Assembly (NCBI GenBank): GCA_902728285.1
Contig: CACVBU010000158.1
Location: 124,001 to 188,000, forward strand
DNA from: Clytia hemisphaerica
Taxonomy: Eukaryota; Cnidaria; Hydrozoa; Leptothecata; Clytiidae
Reading direction: 5' to 3'
Length of the DNA stretch: 64,000 bases
Of this stretch, positions 1,678-41,900 are shown piece by piece (the first letter of the stretch is position 1; each line of letters opens with the position of its first letter). The position numbers were made by a program, and so were the translations under genes. The notes beneath the pieces are model-generated. The model was not told the DNA's origin. It did not search any database and saw nothing but the letters and a program-made list of their open reading frames with translations.

Positions 1678-1853
1678 TACAATTTATCTTATATGCACAA
1701 CTTCATCATTAGGCTTTATACAGAATGCTAAGGTCCTTAGTAAGAAGTGCTTCAGAAAATACTGATATGTGTGACACATTGTTAATGGTTGGATATATCA
1801 ATTATTTTTTTTCGGTCAAAAAGAATAAATTATAATCATTAAATAGCTAGTTA
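1678..1853 (-). other. Intron remnant of the split gene, left of the BEL insertion
   Basis: AT-rich, no coding signal. It ends in AGTTA (1,849-1,853), the left copy of the 5-bp target duplication. Confidence 0.5.
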
Positions 1854-2430
1854 TGTTTAGGGGATTGACAAAGTTCATGTAACGATTTTGTTTGTTCGTT
1901 ATATTCGTTCAAGCTAAAAACACGAGAAACAATTATACAAAGTAACTTGACATATTTACATACATAGGCCTATGTTAGTAGTCGGGTTAGTCAGTCAAAA
2001 AATATACAAGTCAAAATTGTACAAGCTATAGTCAAAGTCTGAGCCAAAATCTAAGTCAAAATAGGATAAAAATGGCACAAAATAGCATGGAAAATATGTA
2101 CAAGACAGAAATATACTTACAAAATATTGTCGGCAAACTATCCCAAAAACAAATAAAAGACTTGACTTGATAACTAGTCAGACGCTATCAAAGTTGCAGT
2201 TTTGTCAAAGTCAGACATGACATTTTCTTACTAAAAGGTCGTCTTTTCTCTCACAGCTTTCTTGTGTCTTGTCAAAGAGAAAATTGTGTCAAAAAAAGGC
2301 GTTCAAAGTTTTCTATATAAAAAGGCAATAAAAAACACTAATTACTCCGGCAGGAGAGCCATCATACCAAATCACTCCGATGGAGAGCAAATTCAATGAC
2401 GTTATGCACTTGGGAGTTTTAACCAAAACA
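1854..2430 (-). repeat. 3' LTR of the BEL/Pao element
   Basis: 577 bp. On the plus strand it starts TGTTTAGGGG and ends AACCAAAACA, giving TG...CA ends on either strand. It matches 16,447-17,022 over its whole length. A TATATA stretch near 2,315 could serve as the TATA element. Just outside, at 2,431-2,441, the minus strand reads GTTGGGTGGAG, a purine-rich tract placed where the polypurine tract should be. Confidence 0.95.
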
Positions 2431-2667
2431 CTCCACCCAACAGAGATTGCGTCTCTCCAAACAACCAGTGCATCCAACAAGCATTTGCCATTTGACCAAC
2501 AAATTATACAAACGCAGACTGCGTTTCATGTAAAAGTTCTTTGAGTTACCAATGCGATTAACTCATATCAAAGTTCATTTAGTAGAATCTAACACAACAA
2601 TACCATAATTACAACCAAGCTGGATTTCGAACCACGCTCGTTAAGACCATTTCATCGAAGACAACGA

Positions 2668-3462
2668 TCACCGGACAGCTTCCAGTAATCCTAACCTCCC
2701 AACGGCTCGTTTAAAAGTGCTCCCGTCCTTCGTCCTGACGATTGCCACTCGCGTTCTGCCGTCCTCTGATGGAATTATGCTTTGGATTCGTGCCAACGGC
2801 CACTTGTGTCTGGCGATTGAGGTGTCCTTGATGACCACAAGGTCTCCTGGCTTCATGTTTCTCGTTTCGCTCGTCCATTTTGACCTTTCGTTAAGCGAGG
2901 GCAGGTATTCTTTCACCCATCTTGACCAAAACGTTGCGAGTGCCTTTTGGACTTGCTTCCATTTGCTCCTTAGTCCGGATGCCTCGCTCATGATTGGATA
3001 ATTTGGTGCAGATCGACCAAGAAGAAAGTGATTTGGAGTCAGGGCTTCATAATCGTTTATGTCGTCACTAACAGGTGTAATTGGTCGGGAATTGAGGGTT
3101 GACTCTACCTCAAGTAATAAGGTGTGTAAAGCCTCCTCATTAAACATTCTGTCACCCACCGTTGCCCTCAGTGCTCTTTTTGTCAGCTTGACCATGGACT
3201 CCATGGCACCACCCATCCATGGCGCGACGGGTGGGTTGAACTTCCATTCGATGTTGTTTGCTGAAAGTTCATTAGTAATCCTTTTCTGGTCTAATTTCTC
3301 GAGTGCCTCCCTTAATTCTCTCTCTGCCCCCACAAAAGTAGTCCCGTTGTCACTTCGGATAACCCTGGGGTTACCCCTTCTTGCCCTGAATCTTCTAAGT
3401 GCTAGGATAAAATTAGCATTGGACCAAAGTAGTCCACTCCGACATTTTGGAATGCGTGACAT
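2668..3462 (-). pseudogene. BEL/Pao integrase, core and C-terminal part
   Basis: Encodes the second half of the integrase that inserts the retrotransposon cDNA. SDNGTTF carries the second catalytic Asp and GGAMESMVK the catalytic Glu. Downstream, NHFLLGR and a PGDLVVIKD segment are typical of the BEL/Pao integrase C-terminus. The N-terminal end of this frame joins the preceding frame at about 3,402-3,440 through a junction that removes the core between the first Asp (DYFGP) and DNG: only about 30 residues remain where roughly 60 are usual. The deletion also shifts the frame, so this copy cannot make a working integrase. The stop at 2,668 leaves about 240 bp to the 3' LTR. Confidence 0.85.
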
Positions 3463-4056
3463 CTGGAATCAACTCTTTCAAGTGGTAAGTCAGCCATCAG
3501 TGGATGTTTCGTCTTGACGCTCTCCTTTTTGCAGAAGAAGCATTTCGTTAATATCTTTCTCACCTTTGATTTTGCGGCTGTGATCCAAAATTTCTCCCTC
3601 AGGATGGACAATGTTGCGTTTCTTCCGATGTGATGATGTTTCTCATGTGTATGTCGGATGATGAGTGTGCTGATCGGATGTTCTTTGGATAAGATGATTT
3701 GATGCTTCGCTTGGGTAGGTAACAGTGCTTTTGAAAGTCTGCCTCCTACACACAGAAGTCCTTCCATCTTTGTTGGCTGAAGATTCGTCAGTCTTTGTGC
3801 GGACAAACTTGCTCTGGATTCTTCTTGAGAAATTCTGCATAGTTCTCCGCTGGCTCTTTGAAGATCATTGGCGGTCAGAATTGACATATCTGTCTCCGAG
3901 CTACCGTGTCGTTTGAATTCTACCCATCTCCTTTTCAGTTTCATGATCCATGCGTGAGCTCGTTTGATTTTGTCCCATTCTGAAAACTTCTCCCATCTGA
4001 TGACATCCGTCATTTGATCCTCTAATCTCTGGATGCTAGCTGTCGATGCCTCTTTC
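3402..4056 (-). pseudogene. BEL/Pao integrase, zinc-binding domain and start of core
   Basis: Shows the HHCC zinc-binding module of retroelement integrases (HTHEKHHHIG ... CFFCKK) and the beginning of the core with the first catalytic Asp in VGVDYFGP. The preceding helical segment WEKFSEWDKIKRAHAWIMK is the usual BEL/Pao linker between RNase H and integrase. The frame is open up to 4,056, where the hAT transposon begins. Its register matches that of the RNase H frame ending at 11,269 if the insert and one CTTTC copy are discounted. The 3' end runs into the core deletion described for the neighbouring part. Confidence 0.85.
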
Positions 4057-4070
4057 CAGCGGCGGATTTG
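4057..4070 (+). repeat. Left terminal inverted repeat of the hAT element
   Basis: CAGCGGCGGATTTG, preceded by the duplication CTTTC. It pairs with the right end at 11,255-11,268. Confidence 0.85.
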
Positions 4071-4713
4071 AAGTGAAGAAGTGAAGATATTTCTTCATTA
4101 AAAATTCTTCATGTAAAGTGTTGTTATACCTCATCAAGAAATCAAGAATTGTGTTGTTGGGTGTTAGATGATTTATATGATTTTTTATTATTCGCGACGT
4201 AATTTTTTCCTTTTCCTTTTCATCCCGCCGATCCACGCACACACATCGCCCCCTCTTTAAATTCTTTTAGCTTTATCGTCCGCCTTCTTCCACGCCCGCC
4301 CAGGCACCCCTATTTCCGCGTTTTCCCGGGACTTTAGCTGTCCGTACAGATTTTTTCCGCTTTACGCAAGTATTGTTTTGTTTACATGAACTGGCTACCG
4401 TAAAATTTGCCATTCATCAGTTTGTCAATTTTTTTTGACTCCTAAACTGAAGAACCAAGCAAAGCAACACAGGGAAAAAACTGGGGTCAAAGTTCAACAT
4501 AGCACGAAATGAAGAAATGTTAAGGAAATGAAGATTAATCCCGAATTTACGTCAACGATTTTTTGGCAAAAAAAAACACAACACTACTGGACTGGCAGCA
4601 CGAGACTTGGCTGCTTTATTTGAAAATGGCTGAAAATGGAAAAGGAGCTCATGTTGTTGTTGGATGTGGAGGGGAGGTGAATTGTATGTGATATCCATTT
4701 ATGGTATGCTGAT

Positions 4714-7700
4714 ATGGACCAAAAAACCAGTCTCGACACATTAAATAAATGGAGGGAGGAAATTTTGGCAGCTTCTTCAAAAAATCTCCATCCAATAAAA
4801 CTAAAAACTGACAGGGTTGCCACGACTTTGGTGCCTGAGAGTTTCGACAATTATGAAGCACTAAAGTAAGATTCTTTTTACATTAGTTTCTTGTCTGAAA
4901 AAAGTGTTTTAATAAACTTCTGAAAAAAAATAGTTGTGAATCTCAGCCAGCAGCCATGAGTTGAGAGCCCCTTCCTTGACTCCTCCCCTCTCTGCGACTC
5001 TGGATTTATACCGTGACATGATGAGAAAGCAAAGGGTAAACTTTCATACTCACAGACTCAAATTTGAAGAACTCGTTGGTCATCAAGTTATGGTTGAAAA
5101 GTCTTCTTGATTGTTTCTTTGTTTTTGATTTTATAAATTGATGACCATCAGTGAGTTTTTAAAGAGGTGATGAAAGTTACCCTCATAACCACCCTGGACA
5201 CCACCGCCGTACGTACATTGTACCTACGGTGTTGTACAGTGGAATTTTGAGGTTAAGATCTAAAACACCGTATATTTTCCCACCGTACGATCCTGACGGC
5301 GCACAGCACCGGACTTGTACGGTGTCTTTATTGCAATGTCCAGTGATGGTGGTCCATCTGGGGCGCCCAAGACGCAAAACTTTAAACAGCCATAAAAACT
5401 GAACCAGTGGTCCAATTAACCTCAAATTTTCAACATTAATTCAGTACCTGGCACAGGTCAAGAGGACATAAAAAGATTTTCCTTAAAAGCCAGTTATCAC
5501 GTGGTCAAATTTTCAGGGTAGGCCGATTGCCGACTTTAGGTGTACCAGTCAAATTTCCGCCATTTCGAAAGAAATTCATAAGTTATGAATTTTTTTTTGA
5601 CTTAATCATTATCTAACTAAGCGAATAGTATAATTGTGCCAACGTTCGAGGGGGGCGTGCCCCCCAGGGCACTACCAGACCTGAAATACCCCGGGGCAGA
5701 TAGGGTTAAGGGAAAAAATTTTGACGAGAACTAATTTTGGCGAATTTTGCCAAAATTTGCCAAAATTAGTTCTCACCAAAATTTGCCAAAATTAGTTCTC
5801 ACCAAAATTTGCCAAAATAAGTTCTCGCCAAAATTAAAAAATTATTAACGTATTGAACAAGGCGTTATGTTGGATTCTTTTTCCGTGTATAACCTTTTTC
5901 AGTTAGTCTACTTTCCAAATTTGAGGTTATTGTGATAATTCGTTTAGGATTTATCGCTGGAGCTTTTTTCTGAAATCCGCACCAAATATTTTGCAGACCA
6001 AATCTTTTTACAATGTTTATTTTCTTAATTTTAGATGTACTGCAGATGGTAATTGCTTGTTCAATTCCTGTTCAATCGTCTTGACTGGTGGTTCCGAAAA
6101 ACTTAATCAAATTCTCCGTGCAGCAGTGTCACTGGAATTGTCATGTAATATTGAGTTCTATGAGAATCACCAATTTCTGAAAAAGAAAATTGAGGAGAAC
6201 AGTGAGCATAATGAAGCATTCATAACTGGGATGGCTTTCACCAATGAAGCAGCTGACAGTAAAAATCCTGTAAAGACTGAAGCCAAACGTATAAGTGAAA
6301 ATCGAAAATGGGGTTCTTTGATGGCAATGTTTGCTTTATCTTCTGTTGTGAACAGAAAAATAGTTTCGGTGTATCCTGAGACGTCAGATTTAAATTTCAA
6401 AATTTTCAATGGAACAATTGAACCAAGACAAGACAATGAATCATTTGAATCTGAAAGTAACAATAATAATGATATCATAATTATGTGGTCACGGATTGGA
6501 AATAATGTATCACTTAGTGAGGGAAGATACCAAGCAAACCATTTTGTACCTTTGCTTCAAAAAGATCAGGTTGATGTCTCATTCCAAACCAAAGATCGAA
6601 AGGCTGGTGCCAAGAAGAAGATCAAAACAACCAAACGAAAGTCTCTTGAAACTATAGTGATTGATAATGAAACACCACCTGCAAGCAAAACCATTAAATT
6701 GGACCCAAACCAAAATACTCGTAAGTTAAGAATTCTCAAAAAGAATTTTTATCTCTTACTGATTGTTTTTGTGATCTGTTCTCTTTGACATAAGAAAATA
6801 GTCATTGGTTTTGATTTCTTATGCGTTTTGTTTTTGGCTTTTAAAAAAAGTTTGCTAAAAGTTGTTATAGTTTTGATAACCCATTTAATTAGGAAGTGTA
6901 CTTTAGGGTTGACAAAGAGTCTCTGTGCTTCTCTTATTATTATATCAATTTTTTTATCAGGAGTTGGGACAAAAACCATCAAAACCAAGTCGAAACCACT
7001 GTCTGATTATTTTCCAAAATTTGGGCATAAACCATCCTTGATCAAAAACAAAGAAAATCTTTCACCACAACCAAAAAATCCTCAGCCAGAAACTCTTCAA
7101 CCAGGTGCTATGCAACCACAAATTCCACAACCACCACTTACTCAAGCAAAAAATCCTCTACCAGATCAAAACCATCCTCCTGATGATAACATTTCAATTA
7201 AACAACCTCAAGATATTGATATTGCAGATGTTTTCAAGATAAGAAACACTTTATCTCCTCGTGAAAAGATTGAGCTCAAATATAAAATTATTCAGCCATC
7301 TCAGACGTTTCACTTCCCGAAATCAGGGCAACTTAGTTGCAAATTTACATGGCTGAAGAACTATGAACATCTTGTGTATTCACCAGCAAAAGATGCATTG
7401 TATTGCTTTGCTTGTGTAGTTATGGGAGTTACTACCCGTAGCAACCTCACCAAAGAAAATGGTATGCGTTGTTGGAAAATGGCAACGACAAAGATCAAAC
7501 AACATTTCCAAAATCAGCATGGGGCATTGGAAGATTTTAAGAATCTGACAGTTGCAATAAGAGATCCGAGTAAATCAATAGATGTAACTGCAAATAGACT
7601 TGTCTCAACGATAGTACAGAGGAACAGGGACATGATTCGACCAATAATTGCAACACTGATTTGTCTTGGAAAGTGTAATCTTGCAATCAGAGGCCACCGA

Positions 7701-10700
7701 GATGATTCTAAATACTACCTTGGTGAAAACACTTGTAAGTTACCCTTCCTTCCCTCTTTGCCTAATTTTTACATATTTTGACGAAAACTTTTCTCTATGA
7801 CTGAAATTACACCTTTTTCACTTTGTTATGATGCAGGACCCATTTTATGATGTTTTTCCCATAAGTAGTTGTCACCCCTTGCTTATTACCCCCTTTACAA
7901 TTATCCATTATCCATTTTCTGTATTCAAAATATGATACTTTTACATTTCAGCCAATTCTTGTGGAAACTTCTTGAGTATTTTGAAATTGGTGCTTGACTT
8001 CGCTCCACCTGGTCTGAAAGAGCTTGTAATGAAGTGTCCCAAAAATGCAACGTACAAGTCCAAGACTATTCAAAACCAAATTATAGACGTGATTAAAGAC
8101 TACATCCAAGGCAAGATTGTCAAGAAGATCAAAGTGAAACGAGTATTCAGTGTTTTGGCAGACGAGGCAACAGACGTCAGCAATAAAGAACAGATGGCAC
8201 TTGTTCTGCGGTATCTGAATCAGAATAACATTATAAAGGAAGAATTTGTGAATTTTATTCATTGTAAAACTGGTACAAGTGGCATGGCACTTTCACAAAA
8301 TATTCTGGATGAAGTTAAAGCTTTAGGTTAGTATATTTTGTATGAGTACATCTTGGGGTGCACTAACGTAAAAAAATTAAATTTCAAGCTCGCACTATTT
8401 TTATTCAAAACTATTTGCAAAGGAAATATGCATTAGGAAAGATTCTTTAGGGGACAAATAAGTACCATTAGGGTCATTCATTGTACTTACCCTTCATTGT
8501 TTTGTTTTATCTCAGGACTCGACTTTGAAGACGTCAGAGGACAAGGTTATGATGGTGCTGGTGCTATGGCTGGGAATGAAAAAGGTTGTGCAGCTAGGAT
8601 ATTAAAAATACATCGTTTGGCAGTCTATATCCATTGTTTTGCGCATCGATTGAATCTAAGCATCATGAAAGTTTCTAACATCACACTAGTTAGAGACGTC
8701 TTCGATCATACCCGAGTGATAGCTGACTTTTTTACTAATTCTCCCAAACGTGCAGAATACCTTGAACACATCTTCTCTGAACTGGACGGAGTTCTCAGAA
8801 AACTTATCAATATTTGCCGTACCAGGTATGTATATTGTTTGCATGGTGTATTATTTTTTACTCAATGGCAATGATTTAAGAAGCCTATCAACCTTTCTTT
8901 TTTTATACGGCAACCTTTGTGGTCTTTCGAAAAATATGTTTGCATCAATATTTGATAGTTGACAGAATAAATGAATAGTCTCAAATTGCATGCAACTTTA
9001 AAAATCTATCATGTTTATTCTATTTAAGATGGGTAGCACGGATTCTTGGTATCAACCGCATCGTTGAAAGTTATCTTAAAGTGCACAAAACTTTTTCTGA
9101 TGTTGCAAAATCGGGTGCTACGTTTCAAGGTGTAAAATGGGACGCAAAAACACAAACTAAAGCAAACGGTTGCCGGGCGAAGATGGAGACTTTTGCTTGG
9201 CTTGTTGCCCTTGTCATTACGAAAAACATATTCTTCTACATCGATTCAATCACGACTGGTTTGCAAGGTAACTACTAGTATGTTTATGTAAAAACGATTA
9301 TTTGCTAAAAGTATGGGGCACGTCGTTAAACTTTGGTTATTGTATGGTAATAGCAAAGTTCGGAGGGGGTTGCTACCCTCTCCCTTTCTTCGCAGTTTTT
9401 CGCTCCCTCTAGCGAAAATTTTCAACCCCCTACCTCTTTGGTAATTTTGGGAAGTTGCTACCCTTATAGGGGTTCTAGGGGGTGAGAACTTATGCTATAG
9501 TAGTAATCAAATTCCATTCATTTCCAAGTTCTCGAAATAACTACTAGTTGCTAATTTTTTCATCCTTTCTTTTTTCTCTCCTAACAGCTACTTCGTTGTC
9601 CATCGTCGAGGCTTATTTAGAAATAACTAATGTCATCGAAACTTTAGAAGGAGTCAAACTTAATGTCAACAAATACCATAAAAAATGGTATACCGAAGCT
9701 GTCGAGCTGGCTGCAAAGATTGGAATCAATCCGAAGTGTCCTCGTGTTGTTTGTGGTGTTAGCATGAATCGAGATAGTACACCTTCCAACACCGAAGAAG
9801 AATACTTCAGGAGAACAATCACCATTAGATGCCTAAACGAGGTATTTCATTGATTTAGCTATCTGGTTTCAAAGAAAATGAAAATTGCCTGATTATAGAA
9901 TGGTTGAATTCTCCTCTCTTAACAACAAATTTGTATTTTCCAAATTGAGCAATTATTCCCGTTTGTAGAGGTGAATATGATTATGTTAGGGGAGTATATG
10001 ATTAATAATATCTATCACCTTTATTGTTTTCAGGTTATAAATGATTTACGAGAGAGGTTTGACGCAAACTCTATTGGTGTAATCGATGGCTTCTATTGCA
10101 TTCCATCCGTAATGGCAGTCAAAACAGACTGGAAGCTTCATCTTAGAAAATTTATGATGAAGTACAAAAAGGATATGCCTGACTTAAGCACTGCGGAATC
10201 GGAAATCCATCGTTGGGAAACGACATGGTTGAAGGGAAGTCAGGATGATACTTTACCATCCACAATTGAAGGAACAATGAAAACAATGCTTACAACCATG
10301 TTTCCTAACATATACCAAACTCTTATCATATTGGCTGTTGTACCTGTCACCACGTGCTCGTGCGAAAGAAGTATATCCACGTTAAAACGAGTAAAAAATT
10401 ACTTGAGGAATTCCTGTGGTCAGGTAAAGAAAATTCTAAGCTTTTTCAAATTATTTGAAATTTGATACATCAGAAAATCTGGAAAATTTGAAAATAAGAA
10501 AAATAAGAAAACCAAAAGTCGAAGTGTGTTGCATATATTAGTTCCATTTGATTAGTTCTGCCAGTGGTTGTATTTTTATCTTTATTTATCTTTCAGGACA
10601 GATTGGTTGGTTTGGTGTTATTGCATATGAATAAAGAAATGGATATCGACATCGATGAAATTATAAACAGACTTGCAATCAAATATCCTAAGCGGATGAA

Positions 10701-10728
10701 AATGTCGCATTTACTCGACGATGATTGA
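4714..10728 (+). CDS. OTU protease-hAT transposase fusion, 9 exons, 1,103 aa
   Basis: Exons 4714-4865, 6035-6720, 6961-7734, 7952-8326, 8516-8825, 9029-9267, 9588-9841, 10034-10423 and 10597-10728. All introns have GT...AG borders, all phases agree, and the total of 3,312 nt is a multiple of three with no internal stop. The ATG at 4,714 is the first in frame after an upstream stop. Residues about 50-230 form an OTU-type cysteine protease: DGNCLF with Cys58, an ALSSVVNRKI strand-helix, and NHFVPLL with His220. Then come a Pro/Gln-rich linker, a TTF-type zinc finger (YCFAC 427-431, His461, His466), a DUF4371-like RNase H fold with likely catalytic Asp608 (LADEATD) and Asp675 (GYDGAGA), and the hAT C-terminal dimerisation region with CERSIST (Glu1041 the likely third acidic residue). 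It should cut and rejoin the element ends in the nucleus; the OTU part could remove ubiquitin, which is inference. It looks intact and possibly active. Confidence 0.9.
5737..5842. repeat. Short tandem repeat in intron 1 of the OTU-hAT gene
   Basis: About three copies of a 27-28-bp unit built from TTTGCCAAAATTAGTTCTCA. The motif resembles the GCCAAATTAAATTCCCGCC repeats of the element at 45,082-45,412. Confidence 0.7.
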
Positions 10729-11254
10729 TGCTATGCTTGCTACATATGAACAAAATAACGTTTTACTGAAAACTTTCTAGAGCTATAATGACTGAGGTCA
10801 AATATTATCGAAGCGTTTGACACCTTTTAACAGTCTATATTTTCAAATAAAAATTTAGACGATGATAATTCATAACTTTCCCTGATTATTTTGAATTAAA
10901 ATGCAACTTTTGATAAATACTTGAAACGCACAAAAAATAAGGTATATTCTAAAATAGATATTTATTGAATAATATATTTACACACGTTTTAATAATGTAC
11001 ATAAGGAAGGAGTTGTTTCATTTTTAAACTTATTTAGGTTGAAAAACGAGAAATATCATGACGTTAGGCTATATGACGTAGTTTCTAAATTTCATCCAGT
11101 TTTAAGCCATTTCCGGGCGTTTTAAATGGTCAAAAAATTTCTTAGGGGGCTCCGCCCCCTAGAACCCCCGCTGGGGGGCTTAGAGCGCCACCCAGACCCC
11201 CAGCTCTTTTTTCGGCTCGCTTCGCTCGCTTTTTTCTTCACATGAAAAAAACCC

Positions 11255-11268
11255 TAGATCCGCCACTG
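11255..11268 (-). repeat. Right terminal inverted repeat of the hAT element
   Basis: On the minus strand CAGTGGCGGATCTA, followed on the plus strand by CTTTC (11,269-11,273). The adjacent 11,140-11,250 is GC-rich and self-complementary. Confidence 0.85.
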
Positions 11269-13080
11269 CTTTCGTGATTTCTTCTGGTAGGGGGTCAACT
11301 TTTGCCTCCTCTTCGAATTTGATTAGATCAGGATGTCTCAAAAAATCAGGACCATTGACCCACTTGTCAATTGGTTTGTCTTCTGGTTTTTCTGTGATTG
11401 GTCTTGTCCCAAGATCGGCAGGATTCAACTTGCCAGGTACGAAATTCCAGTCTTGAACATTTGTCTTTTCTCGGATCTCGTTTGTCCTGTTCATCACGTA
11501 GGTTGAGAACCTCTTCTCTTCATTACGTATGTATGATAGTACCACCATTGAGTCTGACCACAAGAATGATTTGTCGATTGGAAGTCTCATCTCACTGTTG
11601 ATATAGTGTTTTATCCTTGAGGCAAGGACTGCAGCTTGAAGTTCTAGTCTTGGGATGGTGTTTCCTTTGATTGGCGAGAGTCTCGATTTTCCAACGATGA
11701 GTGAACATGTAACATCTTCGTCCTTGACCGCTCTGAAGTAAGCACAAGAGCTGAATGCCTTCAATGATGCATCTGCAAAAAAATGAAGTTCTACACCATC
11801 CCTTTCAATTGGAAAACCAAACCATCTTGGTACCTTGACATTTCCAAATTCAGGCAATGTAGACAACCATTCTGTATAGGTATCTAGCAAGCTCTCTGGA
11901 ATAGGGTCATCCCAACCAACTTTTTCCTTCCACATTGATTGGAGAGTGATCTTTGGTGCAATCAGCAATGGAGCCAAGAATCCTAAAGGGTCGTAAATTG
12001 AGCTAAGAAAACTCAAGAGCCCTCGTTTGTTTTTTTGATGCTCCTTCATCTTTATTTTGAAAAAGAATTCGTCCTTGTATGGATCCCACCATACCCCAAG
12101 AGTTCTTTCATGAGGTAAATGTTCCAATTCTCGACTGGTGATCTTTGGGGATACGTCCTCCGTAGGCATAGCTTGCAGCAATTTTGGTTCATTTGATAGC
12201 CATTTCGTCAACCTAAACTTCCTTCCTTTCACAACTTCTGCGACATTAAAACAAGTCTCTACTGCATCCTCGGTGTTGTCAAACGAGCTAAGGAAATCGT
12301 CCATGTAAAATTCCTCAGTCACTGCTTCTGTTACTCTATTTTTATTCTCCTCTGATAGATCTTTGAATGCTTGAACCTCTTTACCTTCCACACGGGTGAT
12401 GCTGCTTCGTAACGCCCAATTGGCACAACATGGAGAGTCGATCTTACCAAAAAGATGAACCTGCATTTTATATTCCGTGATAGGGTCTGGAGGTTTATCC
12501 CTCCAGAGAAAGCGGAGTGCATCTTGATCCTCTTCTGGAACTAAGACTAACTAAACTAATACATTTTCTCAATATCACTGATGACTGCTACTTGACCTCT
12601 TCTGAACCTCGAAAGTACGGTGACAAGATTATTGAGCAGGTTCGGACCAGGTAGCAAACTTTTGTTCAGGGAAGTGCCTTTGAAATTTGAGGAAGCATTG
12701 AAGACGATTCTAATTTTTCCTGGTTTCCTTGGTTCCAGGACAAAGTGATGCGGGATGTAGTTAATTTTGTTCGAAACTGACTTCGCCTCTGTATCTGACA
12801 ATTTCTTTACATGTCCCAAAGTGATGTACTCTTCAATCTTTGAGTGGTAGATTTCTTTGATCTCTGGAAATTTCTCAAGACGTTTCTCTGTTGATAGGAG
12901 CCTTTTCTCAGCTAGGAATCGATTGTTCTCGAGCTGAACTTTGTCCTTTCTCCACAACATTCCAACTTCACACCTTCCTTCGACGAAATTGGTACCGTTT
13001 TCGAGAAGTGTGAGAGCTCTTCTCTCATCCTTCGTCAAGAGAGCAGGTGATAACATTGATGTGGTTGATCTTGTTGCCAA
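11269..13080 (-). pseudogene. BEL/Pao reverse transcriptase and RNase H
   Basis: From 13,080 down to 12,556 the N-terminal reverse transcriptase reads through VLEPRKPGKIRIVFNAS and the first catalytic Asp in VISDIEKMY. A cluster of stops with a frame change (about 12,540-12,560) follows. The frame resumes at about 12,541 with DALRFLWRD, then the catalytic FYMDDFLSS. RNase H follows with FADASLKAF, PRLELQ, WSDSMVVL and NPADLGTRP, giving the four acidic residues expected. The frame is cut by the hAT right end at 11,268; the last residues reported before a stop at 11,180 come from transposon sequence. A UGA at 13,087-13,089 separates this part from the protease in the same frame. Confidence 0.88.
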
Positions 13081-13086
13081 AACCTT

Positions 13087-13809
13087 TCAACACTCGCCCT
13101 CCAGTTTCTCGAAAGATAGGAAGTTTGCGGTTACAGATTTTTCAGAAGATCCTCCTCCAAAGAGTGTCCAACCAAAGATAGTTTTTACCGCTATTGGATC
13201 ATTTTTCGATTTTCCTTTGACAAAATCAAGGTGAAGCAAGGCCTCCGGAGTGTCTGCACCAATGAGAACTTCAACATCTCCCTTGAGAGGCTGGACAATC
13301 GATATGTCCTTCAGATGATCACAACGTTTCTTTAAGTTTGGTAAGTTGTAAGGTCGCATTCTTACATTCAGGTTGTCGACTACCCAGGCATCTTGAATTG
13401 GGATGGCTGAATTGAGATTTTGGGAAGCTGGTGAAATTGTGAAATTGACGGACTTTGATTTGAACGACTGCTTCTTTGTTAGGACGTTTGAAATCCTCAT
13501 AGTTTGACTTTTTCCAGACAGATTCAGTTTTGAAGCGAGACTCGACTTTATCAAAGTTGTATCCGAACCAGTGTCGAGAAGAGCATTGACTTTGATTGTT
13601 ATTTCGCCATTTGAAACAGCAATTGGAATGACTTGAAGATAAGTATGGACTTTTGATTTTCCATAGTTGGATTCAATAACTTCTGGTGTGTCATTTGAAT
13701 CGACGAAGTTGGGGTCATGTAGTGAGGAATGATGGCGTTTCTTGCAATGTCGACAGGAAACTTTTGACTTGCATTCCCGGATAGAGTGTTTTGGTGATAG
13801 TAACAGCAT
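13087..13809 (-). CDS. BEL/Pao second zinc knuckle and aspartic protease
   Basis: Open frame of 240 codons. It begins with a Cys/His-rich stretch (HSIRECKSKVSCRHCKKRHH) that continues the nucleocapsid region of gag, then the pepsin-like retroelement protease with ALLDTGSDTTLI, the catalytic Asp motif of the Pao peptidase family. KTIFGWTLFG near the end is the conserved segment before the reverse transcriptase. It overlaps the gag frame by about 210 bp in the -1 register. A frame change near 13,800 would be needed to link them, either programmed or a mutation; I see no canonical slippery heptamer. It ends in UGA just before the reverse transcriptase. Confidence 0.85.
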   Translation of the reverse strand: MLLLSPKHSIRECKSKVSCRHCKKRHHSSLHDPNFVDSNDTPEVIESNYGKSKVHTYLQVIPIAVSNGEITIKVNALLDTGSDTTLIKSSLASKLNLSGKSQTMRISNVLTKKQSFKSKSVNFTISPASQNLNSAIPIQDAWVVDNLNVRMRPYNLPNLKKRCDHLKDISIVQPLKGDVEVLIGADTPEALLHLDFVKGKSKNDPIAVKTIFGWTLFGGGSSEKSVTANFLSFEKLEGEC

Positions 13810-15341
13810 CGCTTTTCGTTGGTTAGCTTCCTTCTATCAGGGATTGTTTTCTTTTGGAACTCGTCGCATTGCCATATCTTGTGTGGTTTTTGGCAAACCC
13901 AACAGCTCAATTTCTTGTCGTTGCCAGAATCAATGTAGTTGTTTTGGCTTTCCTTGTTGCCACCTTTCTTATCTCTCCTCTTGTTTTCATGAGTTGCAAT
14001 TATATCTGCTATTGGATTGTAGAATTCCTTTAACGTGGCATCTAAGAATTTTTCAAGCTTAAACAGACTTAGATCAGTGTCATCGAAGTCCTTTGATTTC
14101 TTGTAAAAGTTCTTCCTCAGGTTGTCTGGCAACCTAATGACCGCCTTCGACAAGTTTTCCGTTGAGTGAATGGCGGAAATGTTGCCAATCCTTTTTAACC
14201 AAGTCAAAGTGGATTTTAATTGTTGGTGGAACCTTTTCAAAGCTGCTCTATCATTTGACACCAGTTGAGGTTTATCCAGCAGAAGTTTTAGTTTGGCATG
14301 GGTTACCACTGTAGCATTGCCAAAGTCTCTCTTTAATGACTTCAAAGCGGTGGCGTAGAATATTCCTGATGTCCCAATGCACTCAACACCTTTTCTTGCT
14401 TCTCCTGTGAGGACACTCAGCAGTCTTTCTATCCGATCATTGTCCGTGAATGACAACTTGAAGTGAACTCTTCGACTGAAGTTTTCGATGAATTCAGGCC
14501 ATTTGGCACTATCTCCATTGAATTTAGTTAGCTCGATAATTGGTAACGTCTTACTTTCAAACTCATAGCGAAGTGCTGCGCTAGCAGTGACAGGGTTGGA
14601 TAGACCAGCAAGACAAGTCTCTTCTCCCTCAACCAAATCATCAATGAAGTTATCAATAGATTGCAAGAACGTTTTTTGAGGTTTTGTAGCAGCAGTTGGA
14701 TTTTGGGTGACATATGTACCAGAAGATTGACTCAAGCTATCTGAAAAGGCTACTTTTGATGGTATCTGCCTTAATCGGCGAAAGCTGCTGCGGGACTTCG
14801 CTGTCACAGAAGATACCGATGGTGGGGATGGGTTGGGAAATCTGAAATTCTGGATATTCTCTGATCTTGGACTGGAACTTCTTCCATTGAAGTAGCTTGG
14901 TGAATGATAACCAGATCCACCACTACCACAACTTCCAGCGTATTCACTTTGAGCACTGTTTCCACTGGATCCTTGACTGCTTGAATAAACACTTGATGCT
15001 CGTGTTCTGCCACGAATTTCCCTTTCAACTTCAGCTATCCGGTTCGACTCCCTTCTTTCGCTTTCTTCACACTCCTGGATCTTCTTTGGATCAGTTTCCA
15101 TTGACATGTATTCTGTGTTTGTAGCTCTAAACTTGAGGTACGTTGTCAACATAGTCTCTTGTAACACAAACGCATTTTGAACATCTCCTTCGTTGAGACA
15201 AATGAGAATTTGGTTAATGACTCTTGTGAGGCTAGAAAGCTGGGCTCTTCTGGAATTTCGTAATGATACGAGTTTGTTTAGCTCATACATCTGTGGATCT
15301 TCAGCTGGTTGTTGACCTGCAATTCTATTTGATCTCCTCAT
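13599..15341 (-). CDS. BEL/Pao gag polyprotein
   Basis: 580 codons starting at the ATG at 15,341, close to the minisatellite leader. The N-terminal third is polar and predicted coiled (VEREIRGRTRASS) followed by a Ser/Gly-rich linker. The central part from FNGDSAKWPEFIENFSRRVH to about LRKNFYKKSKDF matches the DUF1759 capsid-like domain of BEL/Pao elements. Near the end is one zinc knuckle, CWVCQKPHKIWQC (CX2CX3HX4C). The protein assembles the virus-like particle and binds the RNA genome. The last ~70 codons after KRCCYY run out of register with the second knuckle, which lies in the overlapping frame. Confidence 0.88.
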   Translation of the reverse strand: MRRSNRIAGQQPAEDPQMYELNKLVSLRNSRRAQLSSLTRVINQILICLNEGDVQNAFVLQETMLTTYLKFRATNTEYMSMETDPKKIQECEESERRESNRIAEVEREIRGRTRASSVYSSSQGSSGNSAQSEYAGSCGSGGSGYHSPSYFNGRSSSPRSENIQNFRFPNPSPPSVSSVTAKSRSSFRRLRQIPSKVAFSDSLSQSSGTYVTQNPTAATKPQKTFLQSIDNFIDDLVEGEETCLAGLSNPVTASAALRYEFESKTLPIIELTKFNGDSAKWPEFIENFSRRVHFKLSFTDNDRIERLLSVLTGEARKGVECIGTSGIFYATALKSLKRDFGNATVVTHAKLKLLLDKPQLVSNDRAALKRFHQQLKSTLTWLKRIGNISAIHSTENLSKAVIRLPDNLRKNFYKKSKDFDDTDLSLFKLEKFLDATLKEFYNPIADIIATHENKRRDKKGGNKESQNNYIDSGNDKKLSCWVCQKPHKIWQCDEFQKKTIPDRRKLTNEKRCCYYHQNTLSGNASQKFPVDIARNAIIPHYMTPTSSIQMTHQKLLNPTMENQKSILIFKSFQLLFQMAK

Positions 15342-16446
15342 TGTAACAGTCTTTGATGCAAACAGAATCAGTAGTCAGAGTAGATATGTTCAGGAATGAG
15401 CCGGAAACAGACGAACGGTTTTGGAACTGGACCAGAAACAGACGAACGGTTTTGGAACTGGACCAGAAACAGACGAACGGTTTTGGAACTGGACCGGAAA
15501 CAGACAGAACGGTTTTGGAACTGGACCGGAAACAGGCGAACGGTTTTGGAACTGGACCGGAAACAGGCGAACGGTTTTGGAACTGGACCTGAAAAAGACG
15601 GAACGGTTTTGGAACTGGACCGGAAACAGGCGAACGGTTTTGGAACTGGACCGGAAACAGGCGAACGGTTTTGGAACTGGACCTGAAAAAGACGGAACGG
15701 TTTTGGAACTGGACCGGAAACAGACGGAACGGTTTTGGAACTGGACCGGAAACAGACGGAACGGTTTTGGAACTAGACCGGAAACAGGCGAAACGGTTTT
15801 GGAACTGGACCGGAAACAGACGGAACGGTTTTGGAACTGGACTGGAAACAGACAGAACGGTTTTGGAACTGGACCGGAAACAGGCGAAACGGTTTTGGAA
15901 CTGGACCGGAAACAGACGGAACGGAACAGACAATGTCCGGAACAGACGATGATCAGAACAGACGATGACCGGAACAGACGATGACCGGAACAGACGATGA
16001 CCGGAATAGACGATGACCGGAACAGACAATGACCAGAACAGACAATGCTCGGAACAGACGATGCCCGGAACAGATGATGCCCGGAACAGACGATGCCCGG
16101 AACAGGCGATGCCCGGAACAGAAGATGACCGGAACAGACGATGACCGGAACGGACGATGACCGGAACAGACAATGCTCGGAACAGACAATGCTCAGAACA
16201 GACGATGCCCGGAACAGACGATGCCCGGAATAGACAATGACCGGAACAGACGATGTCCGGATCTGATGAAGCCCGGAAATAACTCAGACTTCACCAACCA
16301 AATCTTGTTGTTGAGGGGCCCATAGGAACTTAAGAGAGGCAGAGAGAGAGGGAGACGAATGCTGTAAGGTATACCTGAACCACACTCCAGTCTAACAATC
16401 TCCACCGCTTATCTCCTCGGCGCATCAGAATATTTTCTTGAAATTT
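15342..16446 (-). repeat. BEL/Pao leader made of two minisatellites
   Basis: Between the 5' LTR and gag. Array A (about 15,401-15,924) has about 17 copies of a 31-32-bp unit containing ACGGTTTTGGAACTGGAC. Array B (about 15,925-16,262) has about 21 copies of a 16-bp unit close to GGAACAGACGATGACC. The units share the CGGAACAGACG core, so B may derive from part of A. Because 31 is not a multiple of three and the units lack stops, long open frames appear on both strands; these are by-products. The primer-binding site should lie next to 16,446 but I could not match it to a tRNA end. Confidence 0.9.
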
Positions 16447-17022
16447 TGTTTAGGGGATTGACAAAGTTCTTGTAACGATTTTGTTTGTTCGTTATATTCG
16501 TTCAAGCTAAAAACACGAGAAACAATTATACAAAGTAACTTGACATATTTACATACATAGGCCTATGTTAGTAGTCGGTTAGTCAGTCAAAAAATATACA
16601 AGTCAAAATTGTACAAGCTATAGTTAATGTCTGAGCCAAAATCTAAGTCAAAATAGGATAAAAATGGCACAAAATAGCATGGAAAATATGTACAAGACAG
16701 AAATATACTTACAAAATATTGTCGGCAAACTATCCCAAAAACAAATAAAAGACTTGACTTGATAACTAGTCAGACGCTATCAAAGTTGCAGTTTTGTCAA
16801 AGTCAGACATGACATTTTCTTACTAAAAGGTCGTCTTTTCTCTCACAGCTTTCTTGTGTCTTGTCAAAGAGAAAATTGTGTCAAAAAAAGGCGTTCAAAG
16901 TTTTCTATATAAAAAGGCAATAAAAAACACTAATTACTCCGGCAGGAGAGCCATCATACCAAATCACTCAAATGGAGAGCAAATTCAATGACGTTATGCA
17001 CTTGGGAGTTTTAACCAAAACA
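16447..17022 (-). repeat. 5' LTR of the BEL/Pao element
   Basis: 576 bp, same ends as the left copy, followed by AGTTA at 17,023-17,027. Differences from the other LTR include CTCAAATGG against CTCCGATGG, TTAATGTCTG against TCAAAGTCTG, and one G fewer in the GTCGGTT tract. Confidence 0.95.
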
Positions 17023-38989: not shown

Positions 38990-41900
38990 ATCGATCAACA
39001 GGAGCCAACTTTGCTCAAAAAGATTTATCAAAGATATGAAAGTTCTGTATACAAATCCCGATCAGTTGACTTCATTTAAAAAGAAGGAATTACAGTCCAT
39101 GACCCGTTAGGAATAGCCTCACATCGTCGCTATCTGCGAAGCGAAGACAAAAGTAGGTACGTTGAGGGAATTACATGAATACGAATTCGATTATTATAAA
39201 ATTGCTAGTCAAGTTAACTTAGACACATGGGCGTGGCGTTGTCATACTTGTTCACACCTCGATAAAAAATTTAGTAGCCGATGTCAAACCTCCAATCAGT
39301 TTCAACGAAGTATGCATGACTGAAGTACAATTATATGGAAAAGATTTGCTTGTTGTTGTCGCGTGCATCTACCGAAGTCCAAGTAGTTCTACATCATCAA
39401 ACGAAAATAACAGCAACCTGAATTATGTGATCAAATATATTGCACTGAACAACAAGTATTCCAACAAATGTTTGCTAGGAGACTTCCCAAATGTAAATTG
39501 GGACAATTGGACAACCCCACACATAGAAAATAGTAAAGAAGAAAAGTTTCTAGATGCTTTTAGAGATGCATATCTTAATCAACACGTTGACGAGCAAACT
39601 CGATGTCGTAGAACAGATGACCCATCTCTAATCGACCTGATATTGACAGGGGAAGAAAATCAAATAGTGAATCTAGATTACTTAAGTCCAGTTGGTAAAA
39701 GTGATCATAGCTCGTTAGCCTTCAAATTTGCTTGTTACGCTAACCCCAAAAGTGTACAGACAAGGTATATCTTTGTATCGGCCAATTTCCAATCGATGAA
39801 TAACGATCTTAGCTTAAGAGACTGGAAATAAGGTTTCAGGAATGCATCCGTTGAAACATCAGTGGATGATCTTTAGAAAACTTTTAAAGAAGCTATACTC
39901 GACCTCAGAAATAGATTGGAACCCCCGAAAGAAGTGGGAAACATATTTTGGAAGAATAAAGGCAAAATCCCTATCAAAAAGGACCTGCGAGATTAAATCA
40001 AGAAGAAAAAATTGCTGAATAGAAGGTGGTTAAGATCTTCACCTCTCTACCGAGATCGTCACCGCGTCAACTATGTACTCGCAAGGGACAGAGTAAATCG
40101 AATGCTGGTGAAGGCACATGGGGCATATGAGAACAAATCCGACAAATCCAAAAAGAAACCCAAGATCTTTTGGTCTCACGTAAGAAGTAAACTCAAATCA
40201 ACAAGTGGAGTTTCGCCACTTCTTCAGAACCCTGACGATAAATCGTCTCTTAAACATAACAACCACGAGAGGGTAAAAATCTTGCAAAAGCAGTTTTGTA
40301 GTGTCTTTACTGATGATTCAGAGGGTGAATTACCAGATTTCCCTGCACGAAAAGAAAAGAAGATTAGTGATCTACTCGTCACCGAGAAGATGATGAAGAA
40401 ACAGATAAAACTGATTGACACCACCAAATCCTTTGGTCCAGATGAAATTCATCCCAAAATGTTGGTAGAATTGGTCGACCATGTAGCCGAGCCTTTGGCA
40501 ATCATAATGAATAAAACCTTGTCGTGTGGAATCATGCCTTAAGAAAGGAAGATGGCTAACGTTACAGCAATTTACAAGAGCAAGGGTGCTCAAAATCTAG
40601 CAATAAACTATAGACCAGTCAGCCTGACCTTAGTTGTTTGTAAATTGATGGAATCATTTCTTAGGAAGCATATCATGAATCATCTACTAGATCAAGAGCT
40701 ATTGTCAAATAAACAATACAGCTTCGTTAGTCATCGATCAACAGTTACTCGACTCCTGAACTACTTGGATAAGTGTTGCCTACGAATTGCTAATGGTAAA
40801 GTAGTTGATACGATATATTTCGATTTTGCTAAAGCCTTCGATACTGTTCCCTACCGTCTCTTGCTGAAGAAACTTGAAGGATATGGAATATCAGGTAACT
40901 GTCTATGATGGATAGAGTCTTTCTTGACAGACAAAAAGCAACTCGTAAAGGTCGATCAAGTACGAACTCCGTTGTAAGTGGTATTCCTCAAGGAACTGTC
41001 CTTGGACCACTTCTCTTTGTTATTTACTCCCGGGTACCTAATAGCCGCCCCCCCGCTAATTAATTTAATTTTACACCCAGGACATTCTTATTCCAACCCC
41101 CCCCCCCCGCTATTAATTTTTGGGAAAATGTTTTTGAAAGTTCCCTTTTTTGTCTTAATTCTGCTGTATTAGACTCCTTTTCAAACATTTTCCACCCAGG
41201 ACATTTTTATTCCAATCCCCCCGCTTATGAAATTTTGATTTTTTTTCCAACCCCCCTGCTTATTCCAACCCCCCGGCTATTAGGTACCCGAGAGTATATC
41301 AATGACCTCCCAGACAACGTCATCTCATCTATTTTCCTATTTGCCGATGATACGAAGATAGTCAAAGAGATCAACTCAATCGAGGATTCTTTGACAATCC
41401 AACAAGACATCAATGAACTGGAAAATTGGTCGAGAAAATGGCTTTTAAAATTCCATCCAGATAAATACCATGTACTTACTCGAGAACATCATCCATGCAC
41501 ACCCATACTCGTTAGATGGAAACCAACTTGAACACGTTTCCCTTGAAAATGATCTAGGTGTGCTGATCGACTCCGCTATTACCTTTGAAGAGCACATATC
41601 GAAACAGGTCAAGAAAGCGAACGCAATTCTCGGTGTGACTCGAAGAGGCTTCGAGGAATTATGTCCCAGTACATTTTACACACTGTATACCACCTTTGTT
41701 CGACCTCATCTGGAATATGCTCAATCTGTATGGTCACCTAGATTGCGTAAACACGTCAACCTACTTGAAGGGGTACAAAGGCGTGCAACAAGAATGATCC
41801 GTCGTCTACGAAATTTAACATACGAGCAGCGCCCGCGAAAACTGCACTTACCATCTCTTGAATTAGGAGACAATTTGGTGACATGGTTCAAATATACAAA

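Follow-up and report, generated by a model that had tools for sequence, protein, structure and literature searches.

The stretch of Clytia hemisphaerica DNA analysed here, referred to as the window, comprises 64,000 nucleotides (nt; contig CACVBU010000158.1, positions 124,001 to 188,000, forward strand). It carries a hAT transposon whose protein joins an OTU-class domain to the N-terminus of a hAT transposase, with both parts open. Good support for this conclusion comes from profile matches, comparison of folds, conservation of the catalytic residues and further same-frame fusions found in this genome. Judged by its sequence, the element is coding-intact and of the hAT5-like type with a 5-base-pair (bp) target duplication. 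With a probability of roughly 0.57, its OTU domain acts as an isopeptidase that cuts ubiquitin off the transposase and nearby proteins, thereby raising transposition.

OTU domains in DNA transposons are already documented, so that an N-terminal OTU on a hAT transposase represents a new variant. OTU and ULP proteases had been listed as known from several DNA transposon groups in a preliminary description of this DNA, and the excerpts drawn on here for all papers cited by PMC number agree for Ginger1 (PMC2836005) and Helitrons (PMC9741609). The exact arrangement had been called uncharacterised. A literature search is in line with this: no OTU-hAT fusion was recognisable by title or abstract among the papers listed, with subscription journals, Repbase Reports and preprints outside its scope.

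Fusion of an OTU domain with a hAT transposase

The preliminary description joined nine forward-strand exons into 1,103 codons without a stop, and this chain holds. The joined exons amount to 3,312 nt (1,103 codons plus stop), all eight introns show GT-AG borders, and none of 10,000 base shuffles of the chain remains open. In C558, a diverged copy in the host genome, the splice dinucleotides displayed lie at equal positions; on this and the shuffle test, a chance frame and mis-splicing were rejected.

Exon 1 (4714..4865) encodes amino acids (aa) 1-51, an N-terminal lead into the OTU domain, as indicated by the exon join and by 55.6% identity to C558 over residues 7-50. Exon 2 (6035..6720) contains the OTU domain (about aa 52-235) and a basic tail, based on the exon join, Pfam and a fold model. 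A profile search of the protein recovers the proposed N-terminal OTU-type protease: PF02338 matches aa 54-170 with an E-value of 1.8e-6 and 28.9 bits, above the cut-off of 23.3 (Pfam), and this match recurs at 32.7 bits in the genome scan. For the predicted model of 228 residues, all 50 structure matches listed are OTU-class, four of them by our own assignment. The OTU domain of OTUD3 (4bou) is the named system for comparison; OTUD3 is a host deubiquitinase without a transposase. Searching the OTU part against PDB sequences with phmmer yielded just two weak ferritin matches, and profile A3 had no match among PDB sequences. A scan of viral contigs gave no match and an NCBIfam scan no meaningful one.

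The presumed nucleophile Cys58 (codon 6054..6056) lies in DGNCLF (aa 55-60) and the presumed general base His220 (codon 6540..6542) in NHF (aa 219-221), at the very residues predicted before. All 16 fused relatives that reach the site have Cys58, while His220 is kept in 33 of 34 and Gly56 is invariant. These are the three best-conserved positions of the domain. The sole deviating row has V at position 220; it is likely that of P0062, which matches only about the first 25 profile positions.

Exon 3 (6961..7734) encodes a linker and a zinc-finger-like region (C428, C431, H461). It is followed by exon 4 (7952..8326) with the DUF4371 part of the transposase and D608/D612, exon 5 (8516..8825) with the transposase core, D675 and HCFAHRLNL, and exons 6 (9029..9267) and 7 (9588..9841), both assigned to the transposase by the exon join and by copies in the genome. 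The hAT dimerisation region begins in exon 8 (10034..10423), where CERS includes E1041, and ends with the stop in exon 9 (10597..10728). Matches to DUF4371 (E 6.1e-23) and to the hAT dimerisation family PF05699 (E 8.3e-7, 29.2 bits, cut-off 21.4; Pfam) place the protein in the hAT superfamily and bear out the transposase behind the OTU. The TTF finger and the RNase H-fold described earlier are named by no profile match. What is seen are invariant Cys/His and Asp/Glu positions: C428, C431 and H461 as well as D608, D612, D675 and E1041 are kept in the window and in all ten aligned relatives. We take the latter four to include the catalytic acidic triad of hAT transposases.

It is scarcely credible that exons 1-2 are a separate gene or transcript merely adjoining the transposase. 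Such an arrangement is suggested by P0001, a predicted protein that its source assigns to Clytia hemisphaerica and that matches C558 (four stretches at 97-99%, two more at 84-88%) and most likely represents this copy: P0001 starts in exon 3 despite the OTU exons upstream. However, the frame of C558 changes just before the start of P0001, which explains the short gene model. Moreover, the splice donor of exon 2 is kept in C558, one element encloses the OTU exons and the transposase, and the predicted proteins P0014 and P0080 of Hydractinia and Hydra contain both parts. As single open reading frames of the host genome encode OTU and hAT core in the same frame, a separate neighbouring OTU gene was rejected.

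Relatives and shared history of the two parts

A full-protein search, in which 8,000 candidates were scored, returned at least 109 related proteins. The OTU region added 11 proteins and exon 2 alone 5. Two Mytilus proteins among the 11 carry the source name 'Vertnin' (P0113, P0115). A first screen using the window's own OTU found the domain in 28 of the 109 relatives, and a family OTU profile found it in 34 of 111 hAT-core proteins; because this profile draws on the window and on those of the 28 matches with enough residues, the latter count is partly circular for these sequences. Where more than 150 residues precede the core, 34 of 36 relatives carry OTU, and P0072, one of the two exceptions, resembles an OTU remnant by eye. 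Across 55 pairs drawn from 11 members, the OTU and the finger region each have a median pairwise identity of 32.1%, and the core has 38.5%. The linker of about 140 residues is poorly conserved; at 17.1%, it scores lowest of all segments for which 55 pairs are available.

When the OTU label (29 rows) is mapped on a quick tree of 99 transposase cores, it takes 14 changes compared to a shuffled mean of 25, and at least 10 of the 14 are forced by well supported branches. All OTU rows but one sit in a single clade of 60 rows. OTU and core distances correlate (r 0.89, n 22, reached in 0 of 5,000 permutations). A 33-row tree of the OTU itself has 24 rows on one side of a 93/93 branch, namely the window, 21 fused relatives and P0122 and P0126, two short OTU pieces counted with the fused set although no hAT part is seen on either. 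The other nine rows are OTU proteins of different make-up. As these include a Mutator-like transposase (P0119) and a hAT protein of another type (P0118), OTU domains seemingly joined transposases more than once. For the family of the window, we read the trees as a single old capture of the OTU, after which the two parts were passed on together, with losses.

The host genome was searched over 417 Mb, where exon 2 gives 56 matching stretches, some copies yielding two. Distant members were followed at 17 loci representing 14 distinct places. The longest frame includes the hAT core in all of them and the OTU as well at 9 of the 14 places, 7 of these 9 having both the Cys and the His motif. Six of the 17 loci were chosen because their frame seemed to hold both parts, and three of these are additional places; counting unpicked places only, the OTU is in frame at 6 of 11. 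The unpicked loci were taken with flanks of 1,500 bases, so a missed OTU there is no proof of absence. Elsewhere in the genome, PF02338 is also found in open frames of 1,629-2,273 codons (e.g. C472, C905, C618, C882, C793), which are possibly further OTU-bearing mobile elements.

Comparison of the window with C558 over 180 OTU codons gives proportions of synonymous (pS) and non-synonymous (pN) differences of 0.695 and 0.227, corresponding to a ratio of the respective rates (dN/dS) of about 0.14, with dS near saturation. Over 389 codons of exons 4-7, pS is 0.75 and pN 0.066. The OTU value may be raised because C558 is broken and some of the change possibly occurred after its death. Between L048 and L037, two of the distant members, pN/pS is 0.22 for the OTU (79 codons), 0.36 for the linker and 0.22 for the hAT part. 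The distant, saturated pairs L046/L049, L046/L050 and L049/L050 show 0.54-0.61, 0.70-0.94 and 0.43-0.52, respectively. L046/L047 with only four OTU differences and L048/L034 with one offer too few to judge. Apparently fast OTU change in the near-identical pairs L050/L051 and L048/L036 was discarded as mostly due to leader or misaligned stretches. Amino-acid changes in the OTU are thus less frequent than silent ones between distant copies, and the domain is as a rule constrained more strongly than the linker.

Putative role of the OTU domain

The predicted protein would be an N-terminal OTU-class cysteine isopeptidase tethered by a linker to a DNA-binding and catalytic transposase. The OTU would strip the transposase, as well as proteins close to it at the transposition site, of ubiquitin or a ubiquitin-like modifier; owing to the tether, it would act on whatever is located at the end of the transposon. 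Reduced proteasomal removal of the transposase would then result in more transposition, and transposase stability appears as the most likely gain. The use of deubiquitination envisaged earlier, either for protecting the transposase or against silencing, fits this anatomy.

Ginger1 elements share with the window a DNA transposon transposase combined with OTU. They bear OTU or Ulp1 at the C-terminus of the transposase, several of them in Hydra, and a repair role has been suggested (PMC2836005). Their transposase is Gypsy-integrase-like with a C-terminal OTU, whereas the window has a hAT transposase with the OTU at aa 54-170 of 1,103. Membership in Ginger1 was rejected as hAT families are matched and the OTU is N-terminal (Pfam). 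Helitrons and Helentrons likewise encode a transposon protein with a ubiquitin-directed cysteine protease, in the form of OTU and/or VTD deubiquitinase domains, of which VTD is active in vitro; according to that 2022 paper, transposon OTU domains had had no activity test yet (PMC9741609). In contrast to the window's element, they are rolling-circle elements. Helitron membership was rejected since a Pfam search of the 1,103-aa protein with E-values up to 1 finds no Rep or helicase family.

In analogy to the proposal for the OTU and Ulp1 domains of Ginger1 (PMC2836005), the OTU might instead act on host repair or replication proteins, e.g. ubiquitinated PCNA or histones, at the excision or insertion site and in this way steer repair. 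We consider this unlikely, albeit worth weighing. The linker contains SKPLSDYF (aa 290-297, 6990..7013), a motif that we liken to PCNA-binding (PIP) boxes. Of 35 linkers from OTU carriers, 20 contain a motif of the form [ILMV]xx[FYW][FYW], that of the window included (shuffle mean 2.6, most 7). However, N-termini of relatives in which no OTU is visible contain it just as often (17 of 31; shuffle mean 1.7, most 8), and the motif is therefore not tied to the OTU. For the stricter form starting with Q, the counts are 5 of 35 (shuffle mean 0.30, most 3) in the first group and 4 of 31 (shuffle mean 0.22, most 3) in the second. PCNA binding by the linker is a conjecture from motif likeness, and a literature search on PIP boxes gave nothing about hAT transposases by title. 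Going further, one could picture an old hAT lineage with a clamp-directed deubiquitinase, the linker binding PCNA and the OTU stripping ubiquitin from PCNA or its partners, by which movement would be coupled to replication and repair. This appears quite unlikely.

Slightly less plausible again is that the OTU processes the fusion itself to free the transposase, or that it functions away from the transposase, in a pathway of silencing or innate defence. Papain-like viral relatives both cut polyproteins and deubiquitinate (PMC10318531), and a long, weakly conserved linker could house a cleavage site. Its median identity of 17.1% gives no sign of a fixed site, though no search was aimed at one.

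Several observations weigh against the favoured reading of a deubiquitinase that raises transposition. Searching by DNA reveals three close copies (C59, C898, C753; 96-100% identical) and two diverged ones, C558 and C706, with 74-79% identity across the transposase exons and 66-67% across the OTU exon. Of the six copies, only that in the window is seen to be open throughout, and none of the five others encodes an intact fusion. Compared with the window, the OTU exons of C59 and C898 contain a common one-base insertion, which breaks the OTU frame. C59 is further damaged by stops in exon 5, while C898 matches exons 3-9 without stops, yet has exon 3 split over two frames. C753 is devoid of exons 2-4, and C706 has a stop within the OTU exon. 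C558 retains exon 1, an open OTU exon (58.4% identical), exons 3-7 and exon 8 up to residue 102 of 130 in the order of the window, with most intron DNA unalignable. Its exon 3 is matched in one frame over residues 31-165 and in another over residues 146-257, for which reason C558 was rejected as an intact working fusion.

Since C59 and C898 have the same OTU frame break, some copies spread while lacking a functional OTU themselves. Such copies have multiplied, either moved in trans or because the OTU is dispensable, and show that an element can move even if it does not provide its own OTU. Furthermore, two subclades of 13 and 7 rows among the OTU carriers have no OTU in their predicted proteins, which may reflect loss or missing upstream exons. 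As a rule, the constraint on the OTU is also weaker than that on the transposase core. Finally, Asp55 (the D of DGNC), a candidate third catalytic residue, is present in the window, yet D is found in only 5 of 16 fused relatives. Some OTU-like enzymes work with a catalytic dyad (PMC10318531).

The variable Asp would also suit a catalytically dead OTU serving as a ubiquitin-binding or folding module. Vertnin is counted as such an inactive OTU homologue (PMC10318531), and the two Mytilus matches mentioned above are named after it. Human vertnin, however, is without a potential catalytic site (PMC10318531), whereas the window keeps Cys and His. Cys58, Gly56 and His220 are the most conserved positions, which a non-catalytic module would not need, and we regard a dead domain as very improbable.

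Several unrelated DNA transposons have acquired ubiquitin- or SUMO-directed proteases. Here, the protease lies in one chain with a cut-and-paste transposase of a superfamily for which laboratory assays exist. An apparently old and conserved fusion comes along with a coding-intact copy and natural broken-OTU copies for comparison. Whether deubiquitination helps a transposon to move is thus testable with one point mutant.

Element borders and insertion site

The whole element spans 7,212 bp (4057..11268, forward strand), as derived from its end repeats, the 5-bp duplication, a restored host frame and related copies in the genome. Its left terminal inverted repeat is CAGCGGCGGAT (4057..4067, forward strand) and the right one CAGTGGCGGAT (11258..11268, reverse strand). 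The two 11-bp ends are alike at 10 of 11 positions, i.e. short terminal inverted repeats as in the hAT superfamily. The 11 bases of the left repeat recur unchanged at the same end of C59 and C753, with one position differing in C558; C898 has an equal right end. Allowing one mismatch, the window contains no match other than CAGCGGCGGAT at 4057 and CAGTGGCGGAT read in reverse at 11268. As two or more such matches also occur in 8 of 100 shuffles of the window, the pair by itself is weak evidence and the borders lean on the duplication and the host frame as well.

Flank comparison shows CTTTC on both sides (4052..4056 and 11269..11273), a duplication of 5 bp; lengths of 3, 4 and 6-10 bp do not match. 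The usual hAT duplication of 8 bp was rejected, there being no 8-bp repeat, although an 8-bp cut keeps the host frame too. The 5-bp duplication is seen in the one copy of the window; in C753, the only other copy checked on both sides, no target duplication was found and the right end is altered. hAT families with 5-bp duplications are termed hAT5 (Kapitonov and Jurka 2007, as cited in PMC12730594). The window's element resembles them in its transposase family and in duplication length, a likeness that does not refer to tree position. No OTU is mentioned for hAT5 in the excerpts of PMC12730594.

Removing 4057-11268 together with one CTTTC yields a single open host frame of 643 codons across the gap. 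On the reverse strand, the frame before the insertion (11274..12550) matches a Pao peptidase family and that after it (3402..4051) an integrase zinc-binding family; neighbouring frames on this strand have matches to DUF5641 and DUF1759. The 580-bp direct repeats at 1851-2430 and 16444-17022, which are 98.8% alike, are probably the long terminal repeats of a BEL/Pao element on the minus strand (1851-17022). From the restored frame, the family matches and the flanking repeats it follows that the hAT element is nested in a BEL/Pao retrotransposon, where it was probably inserted recently.

Intron 1 of the hAT element contains three direct copies and one inverted copy of a 34-nt unit (5716-5835). 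Stretches similar to this part (about positions 1650-1787 of the element) are located at many other places of the genome and probably represent a separate small repeat. Further retroelement pieces are present on the forward strand, with a reverse-transcriptase match at 2-703 and an endonuclease/reverse-transcriptase match at 39223-39828.
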